From NCBI GenBank assembly GCA_944325045.1, contig CALUYR010000001.1:1-32465 (forward strand): a stretch of DNA of 32,465 bases, read 5' to 3'. Positions 5,261-18,283 of the stretch are shown in pieces (the stretch's first letter is position 1; each line of letters begins with the position of its first letter). Source of the DNA: Candidatus Gastranaerophilales bacterium (GTDB lineage: Bacteria; Cyanobacteriota; Vampirovibrionia; Gastranaerophilales; Gastranaerophilaceae). The position numbers were made by a program, and so were the translations under genes. Under the pieces are notes generated by a model. It was given only the letters and a program-made list of their open reading frames with translations, was not told the origin of the DNA and made no database searches.

Positions 5261-6392
5261 TTTTGATGGAACTTGCCGCACAATAAGCAGTTGACCAGCA
5301 GTTCTGGAGGTTAAACCCTCCGCAAAATCCGTCAATATCCATAACTTCACCGCAAAAATATACACCCTGTACTAAGCGGGATTCCATGGTTTTAGGATTA
5401 ATTTCCCTTAAATCAACCCCGCCGGAAGTTACAACCTCTCCGCCCCGTGAAGGAGAAGTTATCGTTACTGTAAAGTTATGCAGAGTTGAAAGAATTTTAT
5501 CCCTTGTTTTTCCATCAATTGTATGGCACTTTTGATCGTAATCTATGCCGCATTTTTGTAAAATCAATTCAGAAAACGATTTCGGCACAAATTCCGCAAT
5601 TAAATTCTTAATACTTTTATGCGGATTAGAGTTTAACCTTTCCTGCAAATCAATTTCAGGAATTAAATCAAACGTAATTTGATACGGGAAATTTTCTCTT
5701 GCCTTGATTGAAGAAATTTTATACACAAGCGGGCCGGAAACACCTTTATGCGTAAACAGAATATCATCAGCCATACCGCAGGCATGAGCATTCTTTATAC
5801 TGACGCCCGCAAGAGAACTCAAATCCTCAACCGTGTTTAGGGCAGTCAAAGCAGGTCTGGGCTCTATTATATTATGCCCTAAATTCTCTGCAATATGAAA
5901 ATTACTGTGCCCTCCGATTGAAACTATAATTTTATCAAACACGTAAGTCCTTTGACCTGTAACAATCGTCAGCGGATCTTTATCTATTCGTAAAACTTTT
6001 TCTTTGACAAATTTAACCCTTTTCAAATTATTCAAAAATTTTGCCCTGACATCAGCAGACGACTCAGAGATAGGAAAAACCCTCATATCATCCTGCACAA
6101 AAGTATCTACGCCGATATTGTGAAAAAACTCCAGAGTTTCAGCGGCTGCAAATCTTGAAAATACCGAATACAGAAACTTTTCACCACGCGGGTAATTTTT
6201 TGCAAGCTCCTTGAAATCAAACTCGTAATGAGCAAGATTACATCTTCCGCCGCCGGTTGGCAGCAAAGTTTTCAAAGGTTCATCCGCTTCAAACACTGTC
6301 ACATTAAAATCATCCTGCAATAAGTATGAGCAAAAACAACCGGCCGGCCCGCCGCCAATAACCGCTATATTATATATCAACCCTTGTTCCAT
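5247..6392 (-). CDS. FAD-dependent oxidoreductase, HI0933/BaiN-YhiN family
   Basis: A 381-residue flavoprotein with an N-terminal Rossmann FAD site (VIGGGPAG, 11-18), the family signature PTGGGRCNL (45-53) and a conserved C-terminal FAD-contact block (GVYFCGEVMDIDGFCGGFNLQNCWSTAY). The family is widespread, and most members have no assigned substrate. One gut member (BaiN) has been linked to bile-acid dehydroxylation, but that cannot be inferred here. The start overlaps the end of folK by 23 nt, so the two are co-transcribed. The protein is somewhat short but contains all three family blocks. Confidence 0.88.
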   Translation of the reverse strand: MEQGLIYNIAVIGGGPAGCFCSYLLQDDFNVTVFEADEPLKTLLPTGGGRCNLAHYEFDFKELAKNYPRGEKFLYSVFSRFAAAETLEFFHNIGVDTFVQDDMRVFPISESSADVRAKFLNNLKRVKFVKEKVLRIDKDPLTIVTGQRTYVFDKIIVSIGGHSNFHIAENLGHNIIEPRPALTALNTVEDLSSLAGVSIKNAHACGMADDILFTHKGVSGPLVYKISSIKARENFPYQITFDLIPEIDLQERLNSNPHKSIKNLIAEFVPKSFSELILQKCGIDYDQKCHTIDGKTRDKILSTLHNFTVTITSPSRGGEVVTSGGVDLREINPKTMESRLVQGVYFCGEVMDIDGFCGGFNLQNCWSTAYCAASSIKNSRE

Positions 6393-6876
6393 ATAAAAAT
6401 ACCATCTCAGGATTTTCTAAATCATTGTGTAAGTCGCTTATTGTTTTATGCAAAACCGGATGCTCAAAATCAGGAATTAATTCGAGCAAAGGCACAAGAG
6501 TAAACGCTCGCAAGTGTAAAAATTTATGCGGAATAACAAGATCTTTTTCATTAATAATTTCTTTGCCATAAAACAAAATATCAATATCAATAGTTCTGTC
6601 AGCATAACCGCTTTTTTCTGCTGTAAAGCGGCCAAGCTGTTTTTCAATCCGCTTACACTCGTTAAGAAGATCTTGCGGAGATAACGATGTCTTAAGTTCA
6701 ACCACCGCGTTGACAAACCAAGTGTCAGTTGACATTCCCCAAGGCTCTGTTTCATAAAAAGCCGACGTTCTGATAATCGTAATATTATCGGTTAAATTCA
6801 ACAAACTTGTTGCCTGCTGTATATAACCTATTCTGTCACCTATGTTTGAACCTAAACTTAAATAAACTATTGTCAT
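6370..6876 (-). CDS. folK: 2-amino-4-hydroxy-6-hydroxymethyldihydropteridine diphosphokinase (HPPK)
   Basis: This enzyme transfers pyrophosphate from ATP to 6-hydroxymethyl-dihydropterin in folate synthesis. Motifs are YLSLGSNIGDR (5-15), FYETEPWG (40-47), FVNAVVEL (54-61) and the metal-binding RTIDIDILF (94-102), with the late PHKFLHLRAF block. The protein is 168 residues, normal for HPPK. ATG 6876 is chosen over ATG 6882 because HPPKs begin about five residues before LSLGSN and because the promoter (TTGACA-N17-TACAAT) places transcription start on the A of this ATG, predicting a leaderless mRNA. It is first in a two-gene unit with the flavoprotein. No other folate genes are in view. Confidence 0.95.
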   Translation of the reverse strand: MTIVYLSLGSNIGDRIGYIQQATSLLNLTDNITIIRTSAFYETEPWGMSTDTWFVNAVVELKTSLSPQDLLNECKRIEKQLGRFTAEKSGYADRTIDIDILFYGKEIINEKDLVIPHKFLHLRAFTLVPLLELIPDFEHPVLHKTISDLHNDLENPEMVFLYGTRVDI

Positions 6877-6882
6877 AATCAT

Positions 6883-6911
6883 ATTGTAAAATTTTTTGAA
6901 TTTGATGTCAA
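6883..6911 (-). promoter_or_regulatory. promoter of folK, leaderless
   Basis: On the minus strand TTGACA (6906-6911) is followed after exactly 17 bp by TACAAT (6883-6888). The predicted first transcribed base is 6876, the A of the preferred start codon. Confidence 0.65.
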
Positions 6912-6993
6912 CTAAGAATTATTTTTTATACAGTAGCAAAAAAAAATTTTCACGAATTTTATGAAAATTAAATAAAGTTAAATGGAGAAATAT

Positions 6994-7380
6994 ATGAACA
7001 TCAAAATTCAAACTGCCCCGCGAAAATACGTAACCAATATAAAACATTATAAGAATAGTGTCAGCTACACCAAAAGAAATATAGAAAACAATAAAAAAGT
7101 TTCCTCATTAACCGTCTACACCTCCGGCTACAATAAAGGGAAATATATTTTTCATTCATACGAAAATAACGGAGACATTACAACAATCAAATACGATCCG
7201 GAAATATCAGCCCGCTCATTATACTCTAAAAAACAAGGTCAGGAAGAAACATTATTGCAAACTCTTTATAAAGGTATCCCCGGAATATACGAATGGCACC
7301 TGGATTTATTCAACTCAACCGGACAAAGAATTAAACAAATAGTTAAATTTCCTAAAGGTATAAGTGAAAAAAATTTTTAG
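6994..7380 (+). CDS. hypothetical protein, 128 residues
   Basis: I do not recognise a family. The start is ATG 6994 rather than 6982, because TGGAGA (6983-6988) lies at the right distance before it. The protein is basic, has no signal peptide or membrane helix, and alternates beta-rich stretches (SSLTVYTSGYNKGKYIFHSY, DITTIKYDPE, GIYEWHLDLFNSTGQRIKQIV), suggesting a small beta-sheet fold. It stands alone on the plus strand between two minus-strand units. Its TAG stop overlaps the TAA stop of the convergent TPR-NHL gene. Confidence 0.6.
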   Translation: MNIKIQTAPRKYVTNIKHYKNSVSYTKRNIENNKKVSSLTVYTSGYNKGKYIFHSYENNGDITTIKYDPEISARSLYSKKQGQEETLLQTLYKGIPGIYEWHLDLFNSTGQRIKQIVKFPKGISEKNF

Positions 7381-8219
7381 AGTTTATATCTAACAACAGT
7401 ATTTGTACCCTGCGATGAAACAAAAAGCATACCGTCAGCAATATGCAGGCAGTAAGGCTTTTTAACATTTCCGAGAAGTTGTGTGATCGTACCCGCCGGA
7501 GTAATTTTAACAACATTATCAGCATTGTAATTAGCTGCGTAAATATTTCCGTTACTGTCAGAGGCAATATCTATAGGGCCGTTAAGTTTAGGACTTTTCA
7601 CGAAAACACTTCTTGCCCCGGCCGGAGTAATTTTAGTTATAGAATTGCTGCCGAAACTTGCAATATACAGATTACCGTTTTTATCAGTAGTAATTCCCGT
7701 AGGACTGGAAATATTAGTATAATTACCGTTAGACTGCGGAATTTTAGGTTTTACGGCAGAAACTTTTGCTGCAAAATCTTTCTTAATTGTCTGCAAGTCA
7801 GTATTCATAGAAGCCGCAAGCGCTTGAGCCTTAGGAATTATCGGACTTGTCTGCGGGATAATAGAAAGGTATTGTTTAGCATTTTCTACCTGCCCCATTC
7901 TGGCGCTTAGAGAGGCCGCATTATACACAGCCTCGTAATCACTCGGTTTACGGACAATTATTTGTTTAAAAACACCTAAAGCCGCGTCATTTTCGTTCAT
8001 CTGCTCCAGAACAACCCCAAGGTTATAATAAGCATCAATGTAATTAGCGTCAATAGCAATAGCCTTCTTAAACGCATCCGCGGCCTGTTCAAATTGCCCA
8101 AGACGATATAAATCTACACCTCTGTTATATTGTAATTTAGCTTCGTTGCTGACTTCCGCACAAGCAATAGTGCAGGATAAAGCCATAATACAAGCTGTAG
8201 TTATAATTTTTTTAATCAT
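7377..8219 (-). CDS. secreted TPR plus NHL-repeat protein
   Basis: A 280-residue protein in three parts. First is a signal peptide (MIKKIITTACIMALSCTIACA, cleavage after ACA). Next come about three tetratricopeptide units (about 22-125; NRGVDLYRLGQFEQAADAFKKAI, AYYNLGVVLEQMNENDAALGVFKQI). Last are NHL/Vgb-like beta-propeller repeats (about 165-280; SPTGITTDKNGNLYIASFGSNSITKITPAG is repeated as GPIDIASDSNGNIYAANYNADNVVKITPAG). Only two to three propeller blades are present, too few for a closed propeller, so it may oligomerise or be a reduced form. ATG 8219 is preferred over GTG 8231 because it opens the signal peptide. It starts one base after the malQ stop, so the two are probably translated from one message. 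It is predicted to act in the periplasm or outside the cell. Confidence 0.8.
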   Translation of the reverse strand: MIKKIITTACIMALSCTIACAEVSNEAKLQYNRGVDLYRLGQFEQAADAFKKAIAIDANYIDAYYNLGVVLEQMNENDAALGVFKQIIVRKPSDYEAVYNAASLSARMGQVENAKQYLSIIPQTSPIIPKAQALAASMNTDLQTIKKDFAAKVSAVKPKIPQSNGNYTNISSPTGITTDKNGNLYIASFGSNSITKITPAGARSVFVKSPKLNGPIDIASDSNGNIYAANYNADNVVKITPAGTITQLLGNVKKPYCLHIADGMLFVSSQGTNTVVRYKL

Positions 8220-8220
8220 A

Positions 8221-10083
8221 TTATATTTCACTCAACTCTTCTATTAATTTGTGATTTTTTTGCGCAAACTTTTCACCTCTGGCTATTATAGCAAGTTTTA
8301 AAATATTTGCAAGATTAATCGGCGTAAGTGATTTGAAATTATCAGGCAAACGCAGGCTCCAGTTTGCATCTCCGGCAGTTCCCGGACGATTATATACGTC
8401 GTAAATATTGAAATAATCCGTAAAGAAAATTTGAATATTTTCAGCCTTAGATGCAAAAATTTCAACCAGCTTAGTCTGAGCAAGAAACTCTGCATTCTTA
8501 GTCAGTTCAACAATAAGCGCATCTTTATCATCCCAGTCAGGGAAACAAAGATCTTCAACAAGATTTTTCACATGCAGATAGCCTTCGTGAGTATTAACCA
8601 TAGAATCGGCCCACATTTTAACAGGCTGGTTATCGTGAGTTCCGACCATAGCCCAGCATTTTTCGCCGATATTTTTATAGCGGTAAGGATCCTCCGGTTT
8701 TTCAGGTTCGGTAAACTGCGTTAACTTCATACCCTGCAAGCCGTACTCCTTCATAACAGCGGCAACCGGATTAGTCAGTGTACCAAGATCTTCGCATACA
8801 ATTGCGTCTTTATCCAGACCTTCTTCTTCAGCCGCGGCTATAACTATTTTTTCAATAAGGCGGCCGTATAATTTAATCTGTTTTTTGGATAAAGTTTTAA
8901 CACGTTTTTCCTTATCAGCTTCAAGCTCAAGATCCAAATCGTCCATTGAGGCAATAGCAAATTTTTTCAGGAAAGGATGTTCAGGAGAAGAATATAATCT
9001 TCCTGCCCCTTCTTCAATTTTCGGCTTTTTACCGGCTTTATAAACCCACGGATCAATTAAACCTACAATATGATCAATTCTGACTCCGCCCGGATTTTCT
9101 TTAAACATTTTTTTGAACAGATTTTTCATCAAAATGCCGCCGTCATCAAGAGAACCGTCAGCTTTGTATAATCTTTCAGGATTCATAACCGGGAATCCCC
9201 ATGCCTGACCGTCTTTAGAAAAATAATCCGGCGGGCAGCCAAGCATCCATCCTTCAAGGAACAAAGACTGATAAGCCCAGCAGTCTCTGTCAGAAAAAGC
9301 AACCTGACGGTCTGCAATCATTTTAATACCTTTTTTCTTAGCATATTCAAGCGTTTTTTCATTTTGTTTACTTAGAACAAACTGGACGAATTTATAAAAA
9401 TCAATTTCATCAGCATATTTTTTAGAAATTTCTTCAATACGTTTTCCGAATTCTAATTGCTGTTCAATAGATTTCGGGTTAAACAAGTTTTTGTCGGTTT
9501 CAGAGTCCCAAAGCGGCCAGTAATCATTACCGTGTTCAATCGTTAAGGCTTCATACAAACTGTCTTTATCAAGCCAGGAATCGTTTTCTCTTTTGAAAAC
9601 GGTAAATTCCTTCATTAATTTTTTATCATTTAATGATTTAAAATTTTCCCAAGCTTCACGCAAAGCTTCTCCCTGCATTTTGTAAATATAAGAGTAAGCT
9701 GTTTTGTTAGTATTTTTGTTAGGGTTGTTTGCAACTATGTTATTATAAGTATCAACCGGCAAAATATTGTGCCATTCTTTTTCTGTAAGCTGTTTCAAGT
9801 CAATAAAGAGAGGGTTACCTGAAAAAATTGTACCGGTATAAGGAGAAGAATCACAGCTTTTAGTTTTGCCTGCCGGCCCAAGCTGAATTGAGTTAAAAAT
9901 ACCGCTGGCCCAATCAATAATTTCTCTGCCGCCGTTAGAATTTACAGAACCGAAACCTGTATTTTCACCTTCGGCAGAAGGAAAACTGCCGCTATGCATG
10001 ATAAATGCAAAATTCTTTTTTCCGAGAACTTTCAATGCTTTTTCAATAGTTTTTGCTGCGTTTTTCTCTAATATGCAAACCAT
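8221..10083 (-). CDS. malQ: 4-alpha-glucanotransferase (GH77 amylomaltase)
   Basis: A cytoplasmic enzyme that moves alpha-1,4-glucan segments between chains in glycogen/maltodextrin metabolism. At 620 residues it is slightly long for GH77. Family signs are the N-terminal SPYTGTIFSGNPLFIDL block, YWPLWDSE, RIDHIVGL around the catalytic aspartate (usually RxDHFxG), CEDLGTL with the acid/base glutamate, and VGTHDNQPVKMW (usually GTHDNxT). The departures from consensus in the last two blocks suggest a divergent subgroup. A good site (AAGGAG) precedes the ATG. The gene is divergent from the carrier-protein operon, and an inverted repeat at 10121-10153 lies in its upstream region. Confidence 0.88.
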   Translation of the reverse strand: MVCILEKNAAKTIEKALKVLGKKNFAFIMHSGSFPSAEGENTGFGSVNSNGGREIIDWASGIFNSIQLGPAGKTKSCDSSPYTGTIFSGNPLFIDLKQLTEKEWHNILPVDTYNNIVANNPNKNTNKTAYSYIYKMQGEALREAWENFKSLNDKKLMKEFTVFKRENDSWLDKDSLYEALTIEHGNDYWPLWDSETDKNLFNPKSIEQQLEFGKRIEEISKKYADEIDFYKFVQFVLSKQNEKTLEYAKKKGIKMIADRQVAFSDRDCWAYQSLFLEGWMLGCPPDYFSKDGQAWGFPVMNPERLYKADGSLDDGGILMKNLFKKMFKENPGGVRIDHIVGLIDPWVYKAGKKPKIEEGAGRLYSSPEHPFLKKFAIASMDDLDLELEADKEKRVKTLSKKQIKLYGRLIEKIVIAAAEEEGLDKDAIVCEDLGTLTNPVAAVMKEYGLQGMKLTQFTEPEKPEDPYRYKNIGEKCWAMVGTHDNQPVKMWADSMVNTHEGYLHVKNLVEDLCFPDWDDKDALIVELTKNAEFLAQTKLVEIFASKAENIQIFFTDYFNIYDVYNRPGTAGDANWSLRLPDNFKSLTPINLANILKLAIIARGEKFAQKNHKLIEELSEI

Positions 10084-10286: not shown

Positions 10287-10307
10287 TATATTAAGGAATT
10301 GAGATTT

Positions 10308-10565
10308 ATGAGTATTGAAAAAGATTTAAAAGAATTAATAATATCATCACTTGAACTAGAGGACATACAACCGGAAGATATTGAAGATGAAGCCCCTCTT
10401 TTTATTGACGGCCTCGGACTTGATTCTATAGATGCATTAGAACTTGGAATGGCAATAAAGAAAAAATATAATCTTGAACTAAATTCTGATAAGGATGAAA
10501 ATAAAAAATATTTTTACTCGGTTAAGACACTTGCAGATTTTATAAGGAGTAATACAGTTGGGTAA
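10308..10565 (+). CDS. acyl carrier protein, APE type (first of two)
   Basis: An 85-residue acidic carrier protein. The 4'-phosphopantetheine site is Ser40 in GLGLDSIDALELG (36-48). It is followed by the helix AIKKKYNLEL and a FYSVKTLADFI end, closely matching the ApeE-like carrier of aryl-polyene clusters. The start is ATG 10308 (AAGGA at 10293-10297) rather than TTG 10299. It is first in an operon with a second carrier, a membrane protein and an acyl-AMP ligase. It would carry the starter or growing acyl chain after modification by the transferase at 15662-16297. The stop lies 8 nt inside the next gene. Confidence 0.88.
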   Translation: MSIEKDLKELIISSLELEDIQPEDIEDEAPLFIDGLGLDSIDALELGMAIKKKYNLELNSDKDENKKYFYSVKTLADFIRSNTVG

Positions 10566-10812
10566 AAAATTTACAAGAGAAGAAATTTTTAATAAATTAT
10601 CCGACATTCTTGTTGATGATTTTGAAATCGACAAGGCATTAATTACTCCTGAAGCGAATCTTTTTGAGGACTTGGATCTGGACAGTATTGACGCTGTGGA
10701 TTTGGCAGTAAAATTGCAATATTTTACAGACAAAAAAATTTCGCCGGAAAATTTTAAACAAATTCGTAATATTGAAGATGTAGTTAACGCAATAGAAGAA
10801 CTTATAAAATGA
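10558..10812 (+). CDS. acyl carrier protein, APE type (second of two)
   Basis: An 84-residue carrier protein with Ser43 in DLDLDSIDAVDLAVKL (38-53), the ApeF-like pattern. The start is TTG 10558 with AAGGAG at 10544-10549 eight bases upstream, and it overlaps the first carrier gene by 8 nt. Two adjacent carriers with different surroundings of the serine are a mark of aryl-polyene and dialkylresorcinol-type loci, where one is thought to hold the starter and the other the extender chain. The last codon overlaps the next start by the ATGA pattern. Confidence 0.88.
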   Translation: MGKKFTREEIFNKLSDILVDDFEIDKALITPEANLFEDLDLDSIDAVDLAVKLQYFTDKKISPENFKQIRNIEDVVNAIEELIK

Positions 10813-11210
10813 AATTAAAATTTCTAATGCCGTTGTGCATTACTTTGACAGTTATTATTTTGTTTCATTATACAAAAATTTTTGCCGTGAAGTTATATCC
10901 TGTGGTTGTAAACTTTTTAATTTGTACAATTTTTTGGGGCTCGCTTTTTGCCAAAGAAACAATCATACAAAAATTTGCCAGGGCGATTGACGGCGAACTT
11001 AACGATTTCGGAATTGTTTATACAAAAAATTTAACTTATATATGGTGTGCATTTTTACTGATAAACTTTTTAATCTCAGTATGGACTGTATTTTTAAATG
11101 AACATATATGGGCACTGTATAACGGATTTGTCTCATACATTTTACTTGGAAGTCTTTTTATTGTTGAATATACTATAAGAAGAATCTTAAAGAAGAAAAA
11201 AATATTATGA
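10809..11210 (+). CDS. small membrane protein, COG4648/ApeG-like
   Basis: A 133-residue protein with four hydrophobic segments (about 5-24, 30-47, 76-94 and 101-119) and a basic C-terminus (RRILKKKKIL). A protein of this size and position, between the carrier pair and the acyl-AMP ligase, is standard in aryl-polyene clusters, where the COG4648 family is found. Its function there is unknown. The GSLFAKETIIQKFAR stretch after the second helix is reminiscent of that family. Both ends overlap neighbours by four bases (ATGA), so translation is coupled. Confidence 0.7.
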   Translation: MKLKFLMPLCITLTVIILFHYTKIFAVKLYPVVVNFLICTIFWGSLFAKETIIQKFARAIDGELNDFGIVYTKNLTYIWCAFLLINFLISVWTVFLNEHIWALYNGFVSYILLGSLFIVEYTIRRILKKKKIL

Positions 11211-12775
11211 TACTGGAAAAATTTTATACTGATAAATATGATAACGAAACAGTAATCGAACACGGAAAAAAGCTTATATCAATGAGAGAATTGAAAGAGT
11301 ATGTTCATTCTGTTCAAAATATTTTTTCGCGTACAGATATCCCGAACGTTGTTATAACCGGCCGGGACGGGCTTGATTTTATCGTAAACTTTTTTGCAGC
11401 AATATTTTGCGGGAAAAAAATCTACCTTCTGACCGACAAAAACAGAATAAAAACTCTCAACTTTAATTACATACCGGAACAAACCAACAATACATCAGTC
11501 TTAAAAGAATACAGCACCCCGCAAGCCGGATTTAAAAAAATAAATCCCGAAGAGGTTCTTGTGAATTTTTATACATCAGGCTCAACCGGCGAGCCTAAAA
11601 CTATTGTCAAAAACCTGACAAATATGGAAGAAGAAGCCGTTGAAATTCTGAGTATGTTTAATTTTATTGAGGATTTAGTTTTTTATTCAACAACAACAAT
11701 GACCCACATGTTCGGAATAGTATTCCATTTTGTAATTCCGTTTTCAGCCGGCTATATAGTCAATACTGAAAGAATAGAATATCCTGAGCAGATACAAACC
11801 TCTAAACCCTATGTTCTGATTTCAACACCATCTTTTTTGGAAAAAATGGCAAAATATGATATAAAATTTTCTTCGGCTCCATATAAAATTTTCACAGCCG
11901 GAGATAAATTAAGCACAAAAATAAGAGATTTTTTCAATAAAACTTCGGAAATAATTGATATATATGGCAGTACAGAAAGCAGTACTATAGGTTACAGAAC
12001 AAATACCAAATATTTTAATAAACTGGAAAGCGTAAAAATTTCACAAAACAGCAACGGCTGTCTCATTGTAAATTCAAAATTCTTTATCGGCAAAGAACTG
12101 TATATGGAAGATAAAATAGAAAAATTAACAGATAAACAATTCTATCTATTGGGCAGAAACGACCGGATTGTTAAAGTCAGAGAAAAACGGATTTCTTTAC
12201 CGGAAATAGAAAATATACTGAATAATCATAAAGACGTAATAGAATCATACTGCTTTAAATATGAAAACAATTTGGTATGCGCAATAGTAACAGATAACAA
12301 AAATTTAACACCGAAAGATCTAAAAGAATACGTTTCGGAATATTCCGAAATAACACCAAAAAGATGGCGTTTTTTGGACGAGCTGCCTAAAAACCAGAGA
12401 GGGAAAATTGATAAGAATAAATTAGAAAAAATTTTCGGACTAAATCTTTCATATCCGCTCGTAACGGGCAGAAAAAAGATTGGAGAATCTTTCGAGATAA
12501 AACTCATGTTCAAAGCGAACTCAAACTTTTTCCGCGGACATTTTGATGTAATGCCGGTATTACCCGGGGTTGTGCAATTATTTTACGCAAACTGGTTTGC
12601 AGACGAAGTATTTAATATCAAACTTTCAAACATTGAGGCAAAACGAATAAAATTTTCCAATATAATTAAACCCGACGAAGAATTAATCCTAAAATTAACA
12701 AATAAAGATAATTCAGTCGAATTTACCTACCTGGGGGATGACAAAATATATTCATCAGGTATATTTGTAAAATAA
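11207..12775 (+). CDS. acyl-AMP ligase fused to a hotdog dehydratase-like domain
   Basis: A 522-residue two-domain protein. Residues about 1-410 form an ANL adenylating domain: TSGSTGEPK phosphate loop (123-131), YGSTESS (253-259), GRNDR (316-320) and the C-terminal PKNQRGKID with the catalytic-type Lys400. It should activate a carboxylic acid with ATP and load it on the adjacent carrier. Residues about 425-522 resemble FabA/FabZ/ApeI hotdog dehydratases: GHF with the catalytic-type His445, then PVLPGVVQL. The acidic residue found after this motif in FabA (Asp) and FabZ (Glu) is Phe459 here, so dehydratase activity is doubtful. In E. coli-type clusters these are separate genes. The natural substrate (aryl or fatty acid) cannot be read. 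Confidence 0.85.
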   Translation: MILEKFYTDKYDNETVIEHGKKLISMRELKEYVHSVQNIFSRTDIPNVVITGRDGLDFIVNFFAAIFCGKKIYLLTDKNRIKTLNFNYIPEQTNNTSVLKEYSTPQAGFKKINPEEVLVNFYTSGSTGEPKTIVKNLTNMEEEAVEILSMFNFIEDLVFYSTTTMTHMFGIVFHFVIPFSAGYIVNTERIEYPEQIQTSKPYVLISTPSFLEKMAKYDIKFSSAPYKIFTAGDKLSTKIRDFFNKTSEIIDIYGSTESSTIGYRTNTKYFNKLESVKISQNSNGCLIVNSKFFIGKELYMEDKIEKLTDKQFYLLGRNDRIVKVREKRISLPEIENILNNHKDVIESYCFKYENNLVCAIVTDNKNLTPKDLKEYVSEYSEITPKRWRFLDELPKNQRGKIDKNKLEKIFGLNLSYPLVTGRKKIGESFEIKLMFKANSNFFRGHFDVMPVLPGVVQLFYANWFADEVFNIKLSNIEAKRIKFSNIIKPDEELILKLTNKDNSVEFTYLGDDKIYSSGIFVK

Positions 12776-12788
12776 CGAAAGGAAGTTT

Positions 12789-13202
12789 ATGATATTTGAA
12801 GCGGAAACAGTATTAACCGTACAATTTTATGATCTTGATCCTATGAATGTTGTATGGCACGGGAATTACATCAAATTTCTTGAAACAGCCAGATGTGATT
12901 TACTGAATAAAATCGGATATAATTACGATGATATGCGAAACGACGGAATTGCATACCCTGTTGCAACAATGGATTTAAAGTTTATAAAACCCTGCTATTT
13001 TAATCAGGTGCTGCGGGTTAAAACGGTATTGGAAGAAATAGAACCGTGCATAATTATAAAATACACAATCTTTGATGAGAAATCCGGGGAAAAAGTTTTC
13101 AAAGCCAAAAGTATGCAAATCTGCATAAATACGACAACAAAAGAAAGTGTTTATACAGCTCCTGAGAATTTGAAAAAAATGCTTTCTTGTTGTAAAGTTT
13201 AA
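12789..13202 (+). CDS. acyl-CoA/ACP thioesterase, 4HBT hotdog (YbgC-like)
   Basis: A 137-residue single hotdog domain. The active-site motif FYDLDPMNVVWHGNYIKFLE (13-32) matches the YbgC/4-hydroxybenzoyl-CoA thioesterase pattern, with Asp17 in the catalytic position and the HGNY helix start. It would hydrolyse a thioester from a carrier protein or CoA, and such a gene is usual in aryl-polyene clusters. ATG 12789 has AAGGAAG upstream, and the gene follows the ligase after 13 bp. Three bases separate it from the next gene. Confidence 0.85.
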   Translation: MIFEAETVLTVQFYDLDPMNVVWHGNYIKFLETARCDLLNKIGYNYDDMRNDGIAYPVATMDLKFIKPCYFNQVLRVKTVLEEIEPCIIIKYTIFDEKSGEKVFKAKSMQICINTTTKESVYTAPENLKKMLSCCKV

Positions 13203-13205
13203 ATT

Positions 13206-13736
13206 ATGAAAAAGGTTATTATTTTATTATTTGGAATTTTGATTAGTACAGCATACGGCATTTCTGTTTTTGCAGCTGAAGGGATTTTTTCCCATAAAGT
13301 TCAGCCTGACCAGATTAATATCCCGGAATTTAAAAATGCTTCTTGCAAATTTACCCAGGAAAAATTATTAAATAACTCCCAAAATGTTTTGAGATCAGGA
13401 GGGAATTTCCAATTTATAGAAAAAAAAGGGGTGGTGTTTGATACACTTTATCCGGTAAAATACACCACATCTTACACATCAGGACAAAATAAATATATAA
13501 CAGATATAATTGTATCAATTTCCAAGAAAGATTATTCTTATGTTGAAAAAAACTTTGATATGTATTTTCAAAAACAAGGAAACAAATGGCAGCTTGCTCT
13601 GAAACCAAAGGCAAAAAGTCCGGCAGCGTCACAGCTGAAAAATATAATTATACTTGGTGAAACAGTGATTAATCAAATAAACATTAACACTTTAAACAAC
13701 GGAAGTACAAAACTAAATTTTACACAATGCAGCTAA
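13206..13736 (+). CDS. LolA-like periplasmic lipoprotein-carrier protein
   Basis: A 176-residue protein with a clear signal peptide (cleavage near SVFA/AEG, about residue 23). The mature part has the LolA-type pattern: KFTQEKLL, then LRSGGNFQFIEKKGVVFDTLYPVKYTTSYT, a polar central part and hydrophobic strands. Stand-alone LolA-like genes beside an MMPL exporter are typical of aryl-polyene clusters and are thought to carry the lipid product across the periplasm. It is far enough from housekeeping LolA that I regard it as pathway-dedicated. It is followed after 3 nt by the exporter. Confidence 0.78.
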   Translation: MKKVIILLFGILISTAYGISVFAAEGIFSHKVQPDQINIPEFKNASCKFTQEKLLNNSQNVLRSGGNFQFIEKKGVVFDTLYPVKYTTSYTSGQNKYITDIIVSISKKDYSYVEKNFDMYFQKQGNKWQLALKPKAKSPAASQLKNIIILGETVINQININTLNNGSTKLNFTQCS

Positions 13737-13739
13737 GGT

Positions 13740-15881
13740 ATGAAAAAATTTCTTAGAATATTATTTATAATACTAATCCTAAGCCTTGGAATTATAACAC
13801 TTATCCGTCCGGCGGGAACCGAGACAAATATATTGCGGGCTGTTTTTGCCAAAGATCAGAACAGCGACTTAATCGTAACGCTTAGTAATCAGTATTCGTC
13901 CAAAATAAATGTCATCATTGAATGCAGCGAATCCGAAAATTGCGAAAAAACATCAGAAAAATTTCTCGGCAAAACAGACCGGAATATTTTTAAATCAGAA
14001 TCAACGGATGTTAAAACAATTCTTGAAGGATATAAAAAATACCACCGAAATTTGCTTTCTGATAGTTCAAGGAAACTACTTGCGGAAAAAGATTTTGAAG
14101 CAGTAAAACAACAAGGTTATGAACGGCTTTTAAATCCACTCGGTGTTTCTTTACTTCCGATAGAAGAGGATCCTTTTTTATTGTTTACGGATTATCTTAT
14201 GAATCTTGCAGACGGTCAGGATTATCTGGCAGCAGGTCTTATAAATCATAACGAAAAATTTTACAAAATAATACCGCTCACGGTTAACAGGGATCTGGCA
14301 CTTTCTCCGACAATCTTAAACACCGGAATAAAAACTCTTAATAAAATAAAAAAAGAACTTTCAGTCCAAAACGCTAAAATATATCTTACAGGGGCACCGA
14401 TCCACTCATATTACGCAAGTTCAAAATCCATAGTAGAAATAAACTTAATCTGTATATTATCGACATTATTTATAATCTGGCTTTGCTATTTTTATTTCAG
14501 GAATTTAAAACTTCTTATCCCTGCAATGACAAGTCTCGGACTTGGTATATTTACAGGTTACGCGGTTGTGTCGCAGATTTTTGGCTCAATTCACGTTCTG
14601 ACATTCGTTTTCTCTACAACTCTTATAGGAATTTGCATTGACTATTCACTTCATTATTTTGTGGAAAAAAATCTGGATAAAATTTTCAAAAGTTTAACGG
14701 TAAGTCTTTTAACAACTGTTTCTGCATTTTTTATTCTGCTGTTTTCAGGCCTGGAAATGCTTAAACAAATTTCTTTATACACAATTACCGGCCTTGTAAC
14801 TGTTTATCTTTTTGTTGTACTTTTTTATCCGCTTATATGCAAAAATTTATTTAACAATTACGAAAAACATCTTTCCGTAAATATTCCGAATAAGATCAAA
14901 GCCCTAATTTTAGGATTAATGATTGTGATAACAACAGCCGGATTTTATTCAATAAAATTTAATGATGATATCAAAAACATGTATATTCCATCCAAAGAGC
15001 TTATGAAATCGGAAAATTTGTTCAAAGAACTTACCAATTCCAATTATAAAACATCTTTTGCAGTTGTTGACGGAAAAAATATTGAAGAAATTCTGCAAAA
15101 AGAAGAAAAACTTGCACAAAACCTCAACACATACCAATCACTATCAAAGTTTATCCCATCACACAAACGCCAGGATGAGAATCAAAAATTTATAAACGAA
15201 TTGTACAAAACATCACTTAAAGATTACGCCTCATTTTTAACTCCTGCGCAAATTACAAATCTAATAACCCCCAAACAGCCGGAAGGATATTTAGACTATA
15301 ATCCGAATTCATATCTTTCAGAATTTATGCTGGGGAACAATAAATCAGTTATGGTCTTATACGACATTGAATCCCCTGAAAAAATAAAAGGAGAAGGAAT
15401 ACAATACATTAATCTGCAGGAAGATATTTCAACAAAGATTAAAGAATGCCGCGTACATTGCCTGAAATTAATATTTCCTATTCTTACAATCTTACTTATA
15501 TTATTGGGAATAATCTATAGAAGTATTTTAAAAGCATTACAAATAACACTTCCTTCAATATTGGCCGCGTGTTTTTCGATCGGCCTTGTAAGTGTATGCG
15601 GTCAGGAAATCAATATGTTTCATGTTATGGCAATATATTTGATAATGGGTTTTGGTCTTGATTACTCGGTTTTCAGAGCAAGCGGAGTGAAAAATTCCTC
15701 AGGCGCTGTAATTCTTTCTTGCGCAACCAGCGTATTTTCATTTGCGCTGCTTGCATTTACAAGTTTTAAATTAATCAGTTCATTAGGATTTATACTTGCT
15801 GCCGGACTGTTGAGTTCGTATATTTTGAGCCTTGTTTTAATCCCTTCATCAGGATTTGAAGATAAAACCGAAAGCATATAA
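13740..15881 (+). CDS. MMPL/RND-type lipid exporter
   Basis: A 713-residue inner-membrane transporter. One N-terminal helix (about 5-22) is followed by a large periplasmic domain (about 30-230), a five-helix bundle (about 235-366), a second half opened by a helix at about 388-403, a second periplasmic domain (405-573) and a final bundle (about 575-700). Each half has the family's glycine/aspartate motif: IGICIDYSLHYF (296-307) and GFGLDYSVF (637-645). The internal duplication is characteristic of RND/MMPL proteins. In aryl-polyene loci such exporters are predicted to move the finished lipid. It is the last gene of the operon starting at 10308. Its 3' 220 bp are overlapped on the other strand by the transferase gene. 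Confidence 0.9.
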   Translation: MKKFLRILFIILILSLGIITLIRPAGTETNILRAVFAKDQNSDLIVTLSNQYSSKINVIIECSESENCEKTSEKFLGKTDRNIFKSESTDVKTILEGYKKYHRNLLSDSSRKLLAEKDFEAVKQQGYERLLNPLGVSLLPIEEDPFLLFTDYLMNLADGQDYLAAGLINHNEKFYKIIPLTVNRDLALSPTILNTGIKTLNKIKKELSVQNAKIYLTGAPIHSYYASSKSIVEINLICILSTLFIIWLCYFYFRNLKLLIPAMTSLGLGIFTGYAVVSQIFGSIHVLTFVFSTTLIGICIDYSLHYFVEKNLDKIFKSLTVSLLTTVSAFFILLFSGLEMLKQISLYTITGLVTVYLFVVLFYPLICKNLFNNYEKHLSVNIPNKIKALILGLMIVITTAGFYSIKFNDDIKNMYIPSKELMKSENLFKELTNSNYKTSFAVVDGKNIEEILQKEEKLAQNLNTYQSLSKFIPSHKRQDENQKFINELYKTSLKDYASFLTPAQITNLITPKQPEGYLDYNPNSYLSEFMLGNNKSVMVLYDIESPEKIKGEGIQYINLQEDISTKIKECRVHCLKLIFPILTILLILLGIIYRSILKALQITLPSILAACFSIGLVSVCGQEINMFHVMAIYLIMGFGLDYSVFRASGVKNSSGAVILSCATSVFSFALLAFTSFKLISSLGFILAAGLLSSYILSLVLIPSSGFEDKTESI

Positions 15882-16297
15882 TAATCATTCAGCTTTAAAC
15901 AAAATTCCTGCTTAATTTCTGCCTGAATTTTAATCTTTGCCTCAAGGTTAGTCCAAAATCTGTAAAAAAGTTCCCTTCCGTCAGCCCTTATACCATAATG
16001 CGCAAAAAGTTCCCTGAAATTTCTCTCACGCATGAACTCAACATCAACACCCAAAGGCATACTATCAAATGCTGCCAGGACTATATCATTTGAATGCGAA
16101 ATATTAAAACATAAATCACAATGAAGGAATTTAGGTTTGCCGTTTTCCTCAACAACCTCTCTGTCTTTGACGTTATAATAAAAATTTGCAACATAATCAA
16201 CAATATACCGCCCAAGCTGAGACTGAAGTTTTTTCCTTTCCGTTCGGCTCATTTGCGGCAGGTCGTAACTGCTAAGGTTTAAATAAAAAATCTTCAT
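15662..16297 (-). CDS. 4'-phosphopantetheinyl transferase (Sfp type)
   Basis: A 211-residue enzyme that moves phosphopantetheine from CoA to carrier-protein serines, presumably the two carriers at 10308-10812. Motifs are NGKPKF and FNISHS (64-69), the magnesium site GVDVE (83-87), and FWTNLEAKIK (114-123), where the usual WTxKEAxxK has Leu in place of the first Lys while Glu119 and the last Lys are kept. Residues 139-211 are encoded antisense to exporter residues 641-713. At least the first part of this overlap (YYMLSVLSSN, IKTRLKIYEL) looks like genuine C-terminal strands. The start is leaderless, with TAAAAT exactly six bases before the ATG (16304-16309). Its promoter overlaps that of the methyltransferase. 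Confidence 0.87.
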   Translation of the reverse strand: MKIFYLNLSSYDLPQMSRTERKKLQSQLGRYIVDYVANFYYNVKDREVVEENGKPKFLHCDLCFNISHSNDIVLAAFDSMPLGVDVEFMRERNFRELFAHYGIRADGRELFYRFWTNLEAKIKIQAEIKQEFCLKLNDYYMLSVLSSNPDEGIKTRLKIYELNSPAASINPNELINLKLVNASSANENTLVAQERITAPEEFFTPLALKTE

Positions 16298-16309
16298 GGT
16301 ATAATTTTA
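16297..16309. promoter_or_regulatory. overlapping divergent promoters of transferase and methyltransferase genes
   Basis: Plus strand: extended -10 TGGTATAAT (16297-16305), predicting transcription from about 16312, six bases before ATG 16318. Minus strand: TAAAAT (16304-16309), predicting transcription from 16297, the A of the transferase ATG. Only 20 bp separate the two start codons, so the polymerases must compete for the site. Confidence 0.55.
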
Positions 16310-16317
16310 ATATCAAT

Positions 16318-17403
16318 ATGGAAAAAAATGCAACAAAATTAAAATACAGACGAAAAAGAACAAAATATCCCAAACGCTTGGAAGCTTTTACAAAAGCGCA
16401 GGAAATAATATTTGCTCCGTTTACTTTTCAGGTAATAGCGGCCCTTATCGACTTCGGTGTACTGGAAATGCTTAATGCCGGGCCGGCTGATATCAGCGAA
16501 ATAATTTCCGGGTGCAAAATTTCAAAATACTGTGCAAAAACATTATCAGAAGCCGCAATCGTTTCCGGAATTATTGATTTTAAGGACGGGAAATTTTACC
16601 TGACAGATCTTGGCCGAACGTTTTTGGAAAATGAAATGACAAGAGTTAACTTCAATTTTATGAAGGATGTCTGCTACCTTGGTGCAAGTGAAATCGAAAA
16701 TTCTTTCAAAAGCGGAAAACCGGAAGGGTTAAAAAAATATCTGGGAGATTATCCGACAATTTATCCTGCATTATCCAAACTGCCTGAACAAGTTCAAAAA
16801 AGCTGGTATGAATTTGATCACTATTACTCTGACACTTGTTTTAATAAAGTTTTAAATATCATTTTTAAGAATAATCCTAAAGAAATTTTTGATATCGGCG
16901 GCAACACCGGCAAATTTGAAATGGCATGTTTACAATACAATAATAACTGTAAAATTACACTTCTTGATTTACCTGAAAATCTTGACAGAGCTAAAAGCTG
17001 CGTTCAATCGGAAAGATGTGATTTTTACGGAATAAACGTCATTGCAGAAGATGCCAAATTTCCTCAAATGTCCGGGGCTGTTTTTATGAGCCAGTTTTTA
17101 GACTGCTTTTCAGAAGAACAGATTGTGTCTATACTTAAAAATATTTCTAAAGTTTCAGAAGATAATACGCACATTTATATTCTCGAACCATTTATAGATA
17201 ATCAAAATTTCAAAGGCGCCGAATATTCTTTAACCCATATATCACTTTATTTTACCTGCATGGCAAACGGAAACAGCAAAATGTATTCCGAAAAAGATAT
17301 GAGAGAACTTATAAATAAATCCGGACTAAAGGTTAAAGAAAAATATACAGTAGGAAAACATGATTATACTCTTTTGGAGTGTATAAAAAATGAAATGGTA
17401 TGA
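16318..17403 (+). CDS. SAM-dependent methyltransferase, O-methyltransferase type
   Basis: A 361-residue enzyme. The N-terminal winged-helix dimerisation domain (about 30-105, FTFQVIAALIDFGVLEML to DLGRTFLEN) is followed by a class I Rossmann fold with SAM motif I FDIGGNTGKF (191-200) and ITLLDLPENL. This is the architecture of plant/bacterial small-molecule O-methyltransferases. A methyltransferase occurs in many aryl-polyene clusters, where it is linked to methylation of the aryl head group. The first 20 residues are strongly basic. The gene forms a two-gene unit with the acyltransferase (14-nt overlap). The leader is only about six bases with no Shine-Dalgarno. Confidence 0.85.
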   Translation: MEKNATKLKYRRKRTKYPKRLEAFTKAQEIIFAPFTFQVIAALIDFGVLEMLNAGPADISEIISGCKISKYCAKTLSEAAIVSGIIDFKDGKFYLTDLGRTFLENEMTRVNFNFMKDVCYLGASEIENSFKSGKPEGLKKYLGDYPTIYPALSKLPEQVQKSWYEFDHYYSDTCFNKVLNIIFKNNPKEIFDIGGNTGKFEMACLQYNNNCKITLLDLPENLDRAKSCVQSERCDFYGINVIAEDAKFPQMSGAVFMSQFLDCFSEEQIVSILKNISKVSEDNTHIYILEPFIDNQNFKGAEYSLTHISLYFTCMANGNSKMYSEKDMRELINKSGLKVKEKYTVGKHDYTLLECIKNEMV

Positions 17404-18283
17404 AATAAAAGAACAAGCAGCAGGTACTAAACGATTATTTACGCTGTATTTTATACATAAAATTTTCGGTAAAAATGCAGTAAAATTTGTTACTTTTTTT
17501 ATAACATTATTTGTATTTGCAGGAGCGAAAGATATCCGTTCGTATTCAGCAAAATATCTTTTAAAAGCCGGGATAAAACCAACGTTATTTAATATTTTCC
17601 GTCATTTTTTAAACTACTCGTATGCATTAATCGACAGAATGGAAATATTTTCAGGCCAGTATCCTCCTGAAAAAATAACATTTGCCGACAATGAAGAAAA
17701 AGAAAAATGGCTGAATGACTTAAAAGCCAAAAAAGGAGTATTTTTTATATGTAATCACGCAGGCAACATAGATGTAATGCGTGTATTTATGAATACAAAC
17801 ATAAAAGAGACCTGCAACGGTGTATACATTTTTATGGCTAAAGACCAGTGTAAGATTTTTAACGGATTTTTAAAGCAGATAGCAAACGATGTTCCAATGT
17901 ACCCATACCCGGTTGAAGAAATAAACATAAACACCTCCATTGAGATGAAAGATAAACTTAACAACGGCGGTATAATTTTTATGGCCGGAGATAGAATATC
18001 TGCAGGAAGCACAAATTTTGAAGGGAAATTCCTAAATAGTACAGTTGAATTCCCTCTCGGCACATTCAGATTTGCGCAGCTTATGGAAGTGCCGGTGTAT
18101 TTTGTAAGCGCAATTAAGGAAAAAAACGACCGATACAAAATTTATCTGAAAAAATTCTACAACGAAGATAAAAAATCTCTGACTCTCGAAAAAATGAAAA
18201 AAGAATTTATAGAATTTTTAGAAGCAATGACCAAACTTGCGCCTTTTCAACTATACAATTTTTATGACATGTTTAAAGAATAA
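17390..18283 (+). CDS. lysophospholipid/lipid A-type acyltransferase (LpxL/HtrB-like)
   Basis: A 297-residue membrane-associated acyltransferase. A hydrophobic N-terminal segment (about 30-46) is followed by the catalytic HX4D motif NHAGNID (122-128, His123 and Asp128) and by the substrate block GGIIFMAGDRIS (193-204). Layout and length match the LpxL family of lipid A acyltransferases, one of which sits in most aryl-polyene clusters and is thought to join the polyene to a lipid anchor. Here it would take acyl chains from the nearby carrier proteins. The start lies within the methyltransferase 3' end. No terminator is visible after it. Confidence 0.85.
   Translation: MKWYEIKEQAAGTKRLFTLYFIHKIFGKNAVKFVTFFITLFVFAGAKDIRSYSAKYLLKAGIKPTLFNIFRHFLNYSYALIDRMEIFSGQYPPEKITFADNEEKEKWLNDLKAKKGVFFICNHAGNIDVMRVFMNTNIKETCNGVYIFMAKDQCKIFNGFLKQIANDVPMYPYPVEEININTSIEMKDKLNNGGIIFMAGDRISAGSTNFEGKFLNSTVEFPLGTFRFAQLMEVPVYFVSAIKEKNDRYKIYLKKFYNEDKKSLTLEKMKKEFIEFLEAMTKLAPFQLYNFYDMFKE

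Follow-up and report, generated by a model that had tools for sequence, protein, structure and literature searches.

The stretch of DNA analysed here, 32,465 nucleotides of contig CALUYR010000001.1 from a Candidatus Gastranaerophilales bacterium of the gut that has not been cultured (assembly GCA_944325045.1; the whole stretch is referred to as the window), carries at positions 10308–18283 a group of genes for the activation, tailoring and export of an acyl chain. Very probably, this group is the loading, tailoring and export half of an aryl polyene (APE)-type pathway that is encoded at two chromosomal loci. No ketosynthase is present in the window: a genome-wide search with PF00109 returned two matches, both on a different contig (C48, 10,396 bp), and ketosynthase families matched none of 30 window open reading frames (ORFs) in Pfam (0/30; the window has 62 ORFs with a length of at least 70 aa). 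An earlier reading, made from sequence only, had reported that the ketosynthase, the chain-length factor and the ketoreductase are absent. This is correct within the window, but the genome does encode a ketosynthase/chain-length-factor pair and a FabG-type reductase, on C48. In the nearest relative, Candidatus Gastranaerophilales bacterium BRZ_EE__bin31 (CALUYU010000001.1; G041), both modules lie on one 126,382-bp contig (C1), where ~70 kb separates the end of ApeD (34,339) from the start of the other module (104,528), with 77 kb between ligase and ketosynthase. Among 146 sampled genomes of the family (Gastranaerophilaceae), an ApeO-type ketosynthase is found in 64/64 genomes with the ligase. 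The likeness to APE clusters proposed in the sequence-only reading is thereby supported, as is the split cluster that it offered as one explanation, which agrees with the C48 module, the two-module contig of G041 and a contiguous cluster in 52/64 relatives. Its guess at a non-photosynthetic cyanobacterial relative was also right, as the nearest named relative is Candidatus Gastranaerophilales, a lineage of this kind (PMC8863827).

Elongation and loading modules in the studied genome

The studied genome (G000) is assembled in 365 contigs and is 87.45% complete with 3.44% contamination. The elongation module on C48 comprises:

6100–6840, − strand: ApeD-like PlsC acyltransferase
6842–7447, − strand: half-size Ketoacyl-synt_2 protein, ApeC-like chain-length factor
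7477–8559, + strand: ApeO-like ketosynthase
8564–9016, + strand: ApeP-like dehydratase (ApeP-like, 60.8 bits)
9022–9753, + strand: FabG-type short-chain reductase, ApeQ-like ketoreductase (FabG models above cut-off)
9750 to contig end, + strand: ApeR-like second ketosynthase, truncated by the contig end

The Pfam families matched on C48 are PF13723, PF00109/PF02801, the ApeP-like PF22817 and short-chain reductase families, and the NCBIfam model PRK09185 scores 340 bits (cut-off 407). PRK09116 matches the ApeR-like fragment with 310.5 bits (cut-off 470) across the 215 residues present, a region that holds a full-length gene in relatives. The motifs TAC, HGTGT and GHC are present in the ApeO-like ketosynthase, and in the half-size protein the cysteine position is replaced, with VHNAS in the corresponding stretch; we take these stretches to be the active-site residues. 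By sequence, the nearest solved structures are 6qsp_A for the ApeO-like ketosynthase (E 1.6e-67) and 6qsp_B for the half-size protein (E 6.1e-10). PDB entry 6QSP is the ApeO–ApeC pair of Xenorhabdus doucetiae, in which the chain-length factor likewise reaches only about half the size of the ketosynthase (PMC8358021). In the studied genome PF00109 detected the ape ketosynthases only, and most relatives also have a FabF-type match; a housekeeping FabF-type gene is probably located in the missing part of the 87% complete assembly.

The loading, tailoring and export module in the window comprises the following genes, of which the last is a flanking gene outside the pathway:

10308–10565, + strand: acyl carrier protein 1, ApeE-like (PRK09184 100 bits, cut-off 70; PP-binding 34 bits; GLGLDS motif)
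10558–10812, + strand: acyl carrier protein 2, ApeF-like (PRK05350 113.6 bits, cut-off 65; DLDLDS motif)
10809–11210, + strand: hydrophobic 133-aa protein in the ApeG (COG4648) position (position and translation; conserved in relatives)
11207–12775, + strand: acyl-AMP ligase with ApeI-like hotdog dehydratase domain, an ApeH–ApeI fusion (Pfam, PDB match, motifs)
12789–13202, + strand: YbgC/FadM-type thioesterase, ApeK-like (TIGR00051 77.3 bits, cut-off 68.7)
13206–13736, + strand: putative LolA-fold periplasmic carrier, ApeL-like (LolA2_flexi 22.5 bits, cut-off 125; predicted fold)
13740–15881, + strand: MMPL/HpnN-like RND transporter, ApeM-like (PF03176 28.3 bits, above cut-off; HpnN 58 bits, below cut-off)
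15662–16297, − strand: 4'-phosphopantetheinyl transferase (AusB, HetI and AcpT models, best E 1.6e-9, all below cut-off)
16318–17403, + strand: FlxJ-family S-adenosylmethionine-dependent methyltransferase (NF053543 393.7 bits, cut-off 560; Methyltransf_2 44.4 bits)
17390–18283, + strand: putative LpxL/LpxM- and PatA-fold membrane acyltransferase (predicted fold; PF01553 just below the Pfam cut-off)
8221–10083, − strand: 4-alpha-glucanotransferase beside the break (Glyco_hydro_77 240 bits)

The genes that the sequence-only reading had named in this region are all recovered, most of them by profile matches, the LolA-like protein and the acyltransferase by predicted folds, and the COG4648-like protein by its position, since scans with Pfam and NCBIfam gave no library match for it. 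The phosphopantetheinyl transferase has no Pfam match and is tentatively assigned from weak model matches below cut-off. The ApeE-like ORF opens at a TTG codon at 10299, and the in-frame ATG at 10308 is the start chosen in that reading; both carrier proteins have DS attachment motifs. In the ligase fusion, AMP-binding (69.9 bits), AMP-binding_C (31.3 bits) and ApeI-like (31.1 bits) families are matched, the AMP-ligase and ApeI-like parts exceeding the Pfam cut-offs. Its hotdog domain matches PDB entry 6qsr_A (E 7.7e-6), and its motifs are TSGST, YGST and GHF. The AlphaFold model of the LolA-like protein (mean confidence score pLDDT 78) has LolA (8t5j, E 4.4e-10) as its best solved match, and that of the acyltransferase (pLDDT 81.4) resembles PatA (E 3.1e-8) and LpxM (E 3.6e-8) in Foldseek, which suggests the predicted folds listed above. 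The phosphopantetheinyl transferase and transporter ORFs converge, with a 220-bp tail-to-tail overlap (15662–15881); similar overlaps of the two genes are seen in the loci L035, L037, L038, L041 and L052 of relatives.

Both modules look functional, and the genes compared are under purifying selection. Compared between the studied genome and G041, the 16 ape genes (10 in the window, 6 on C48) have ratios of non-synonymous to synonymous substitution rates (dN/dS) of 0.038–0.146, values that are approximate because dS is 0.5–1.8 and partly near saturation. None of the 16 genes has an in-frame stop in either species. In the same comparison the neighbouring glucanotransferase has a dN/dS of 0.025.

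The models matched in the two modules include several from flexirubin clusters of Bacteroidota, and a flexirubin-type pathway, whose product is an ester of the polyene acid with a dialkylresorcinol, has to be considered. The FlxJ methyltransferase (393.7 bits), FlxB reductase (298.6 bits) and LolA2_flexi (22.5 bits) models speak for it, but all three remain below their curated cut-offs (560, 340 and 125, respectively), so we do not call the pathway flexirubin. Furthermore, flexirubin biosynthesis in C. pinensis starts with a tyrosine ammonia-lyase (PMC3992019), and no aromatic ammonia-lyase (PF00221) is found in the 146 genomes. On the model scores and the ammonia-lyase search, we regard this alternative as improbable, and the assignment as an APE-type pathway is retained.

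The break between ApeD and ApeE

In the studied species, the break separates ApeD from ApeE, the first carrier protein. At the break, 8–10 kb of non-ape sequence precedes the first carrier protein in the window, and 6 kb of non-ape sequence follows ApeD on C48. The neighbours of the two modules in G041 are those of the window module and of C48: the glucanotransferase adjoins the loading/export module there as well, and the rest of the window is also collinear with the G041 contig, up to the right end of the window. Identities to the G041 proteins are 71–95% for the ape proteins of the window and 83–95% for those of C48. Because the same two-module layout and the same neighbours recur in G041, the split is real and not a misassembly. 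A contaminant origin of C48 was considered and rejected, as the identities of its ape proteins to G041 fit those of the window module and other genes on C48 match G041 too.

An assembly artefact, i.e., a contiguous cluster wrongly joined or broken in the studied metagenome-assembled genome (MAG), might be expected from 365 contigs and from the contiguous arrangement in 52/64 sampled genomes. It is nevertheless highly improbable, given the kilobases of other genes on both sides of the break and the presence of both flanks in a separately binned genome. For the same reason, the elongation genes do not lie just beyond a misassembly at the window module, as the sequence-only reading had allowed for.

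Most sampled relatives have the cluster in one piece, and the split very probably arose when such a cluster was rearranged. The orientation of the window module in G041 is opposite to that in the contiguous relatives, which fits an inversion. As for the splitting event itself, the stretches examined around the glucanotransferase in four genus-mates and in G010 contain neither an ape gene nor a junction that would prove an inversion.

Co-occurrence and layout in the family

To be counted for co-occurrence, a match had to reach 190 bits. This cut-off drops 19 of 83 genomes with a ligase match, in which other AMP ligases are matched weakly (up to ~42 bits), and 75 of 141 with a ketosynthase match (ordinary FabF-type matches). 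The ligase is then present in 64/146 genomes and the ketosynthase in 66/146, with both in 64 and the ketosynthase alone in G143 and G054. The corresponding Fisher value of 1.1e-39 is descriptive only, since it takes no account of the relatedness of the genomes. In contiguous relatives, ApeR-Q-P-O run one way, and ApeC-D-E-F-G-HI-K-L-M and the acyltransferase the other; ApeM is often followed by the phosphopantetheinyl transferase, on the opposite strand, and the methyltransferase, and then by the acyltransferase.

Ligase and ketosynthase are on one contig in 54/64 genomes and on different contigs in 10/64. In the 52 contiguous genomes they are divergent and within 5 kb. In G118 the distance is 9.1 kb, because 6.7 kb of sequence is inserted between ApeD and ApeE. 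The cluster is split in 9/64 genomes from five genera (g1, g5, g13, g24 and g31), a count of genomes and not of events on a tree, and genera g1, g5, g13 and g24 have contiguous members too. In six genomes (G000, G059, G072, G078, G104 and G124), the carrier-protein side continues beyond the break into other genes or open sequence, and so does the ApeD side, for at least 0.5 kb. The break is between ApeC and ApeD in G108, and in G031 the ligase side only is visible, where the 9 kb that precede the first carrier protein are free of ape genes. G067 and G135 have the genes on different contigs and were counted neither as split nor as contiguous. A separate GTDB scan, of which the best 80 of 484 relatives were used and which overlaps with the 146 genomes, places the ketosynthase upstream of the ligase in 62/80 loci, two of them with a 6–7-kb insertion. 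At least 3 kb free of ape genes precedes the first carrier protein in 12/80 loci; a further 3/80 keep ApeD or ApeC at the contig end, and 3/80 end near the carrier protein.

The sequence-only reading had also raised the possibility that the window module is sufficient by itself: an acyl group would be activated, methylated and exported with no elongation step and, once attached to a lipid, would represent a new lipid class. This would agree with the lack of elongation genes in the window and with the physical separation of the modules in the studied species and G041, but an elongation set in the same genome, a ketosynthase in every genome with the ligase, and an ApeI-like dehydratase domain (with GHF) in the ligase that would be useless without extension make it extremely unlikely.

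Some genomes and loci depart from the common arrangement. G143 is the reverse of the window, with the elongation half kept and no ligase match. G136, of the same genus and 99% complete, has no ligase match and a FabF-type ketosynthase match only; with neither the ligase nor an ape ketosynthase matched, the pathway is therefore dispensable within the genus. In L095, L097 and L109 the genes from the carrier proteins to LolA are present, and the remaining ~9 kb has no match for the transporter, methyltransferase or acyltransferase, possibly because the locus is split once more or because these genes have diverged strongly. L067 contains a full Gastranaerophilales-type cluster under the title 'uncultured Brachyspira sp. 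isolate RUG745', and is probably a mislabelled MAG.

Pathway, starter and comparison with known systems

Compared with the clusters of E. coli CFT073 (apeA-R) and X. doucetiae, counterparts are found here of ApeC, D, E, F, G (by position), H, I, K, L, M, O, P, Q and R, and the methyltransferase would take the role of ApeB of E. coli CFT073. The E. coli orders C-D-E-F-G-H-I-K-L-M and O-P-Q-R are kept in contiguous relatives (PMC8253772), but O-P-Q-R is divergent from the other ape genes here, unlike in E. coli and X. doucetiae. The ligase is fused to ApeI; an ApeH-Nt is mentioned for Acinetobacter (PMC8358021). The cluster also includes a phosphopantetheinyl transferase that the E. coli cluster lacks (PMC8253772). 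The ApeO–ApeC pair, ApeR, a ketoreductase with two dehydratases, and two carriers with a starter ligase, all characteristic of APE pathways, are found at the two loci. A single cluster, which is usual for such pathways but not part of their chemistry, is not found in the studied genome and G041, where, unlike in E. coli CFT073 and X. doucetiae, the gene set is in two places.

The individual enzymatic steps, the product and its cellular place can be proposed by analogy with the Escherichia, Xenorhabdus and Acinetobacter systems. The dedicated phosphopantetheinyl transferase would activate the carriers, one of which the ligase would then charge with an aryl acid. ApeO/ApeC, together with ApeR, would extend the chain, and the reductase (ApeQ) and the dehydratases (ApeI and ApeP) would form the polyene. 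The methyltransferase may tailor the head group, the thioesterase and the two acyltransferases could act in release and attachment to lipid, and the MMPL and LolA-like proteins would carry the product towards the outer membrane. The product is likely to be an aryl-polyene lipid, which would serve as a membrane pigment. The enzymology is ordinary; the layout is unusual, and the starter is a puzzle.

Several observations weigh against a two-locus APE pathway. No product has been seen, and the pathway is known here from its genes. The studied genome is a fragmented MAG, C48 ends within ApeR so that the end of the module is not visible in it, and the physical linkage of the two modules is visible in G041 alone. 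The 99% complete genome G143 has the elongation half (C7, 6226–11085) but no ligase match, and no transporter match was obtained in a search of G143 and G136 that had no positive control; the two halves are not always inherited together. ApeA, ApeN (DUF3261) and the glycosyltransferase part of ApeJ have no counterpart at the two loci in Pfam scans. Finally, the families expected to supply the aryl starter gave no match in any of the 146 genomes: the aromatic ammonia-lyase PF00221 (controls positive in 5/14), UbiC PF04345 (control positive in E. coli, 1/14) and the Rv2949c-like lyase PF01947 (controls positive in 3/14).

Chorismate synthase is present in 143/146 genomes, and chorismatase PF21168 has no match in the 146 genomes and none in the controls either. 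In E. coli, ubiC supplies 4-hydroxybenzoate from outside the ape cluster, whereas no UbiC is found in the family studied here. With no ammonia-lyase, UbiC or Rv2949c-like match, the starter would be imported, made by an enzyme outside the families searched, or different from 4-hydroxybenzoate. Tentatively, and with the balance of probability against it, we suggest that the starter is obtained by no usual route (a plant phenolic acid from the gut or an unrecognised enzyme), giving a head group unlike those of known APEs, and that the repeated ApeD/ApeE break marks a true boundary between a chain-building and a loading/export module that may be kept or lost separately, as in G143 with the first only.

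In the portions of the open-access literature consulted, we found no report of aryl-polyene or flexirubin genes in Melainabacteria or Gastranaerophilales. In the sections seen, the taxa with aryl-polyene clusters are Treponema, Lentisphaerae and Prevotella in PMC8863827, and Bacteroidetes, Lentisphaerae and Verrucomicrobia in PMC9769736; those of PMC9964075 do not name Gastranaerophilales. When clusters are detected per window or per contig, half a pathway can be taken for novelty, and the present case illustrates both how a split cluster looks and how it can be resolved. The missing source of the starter is a concrete, testable question, and aryl-polyene-type genes in 64/146 sampled genomes represent a large share of this family of non-photosynthetic gut relatives of the Cyanobacteria.

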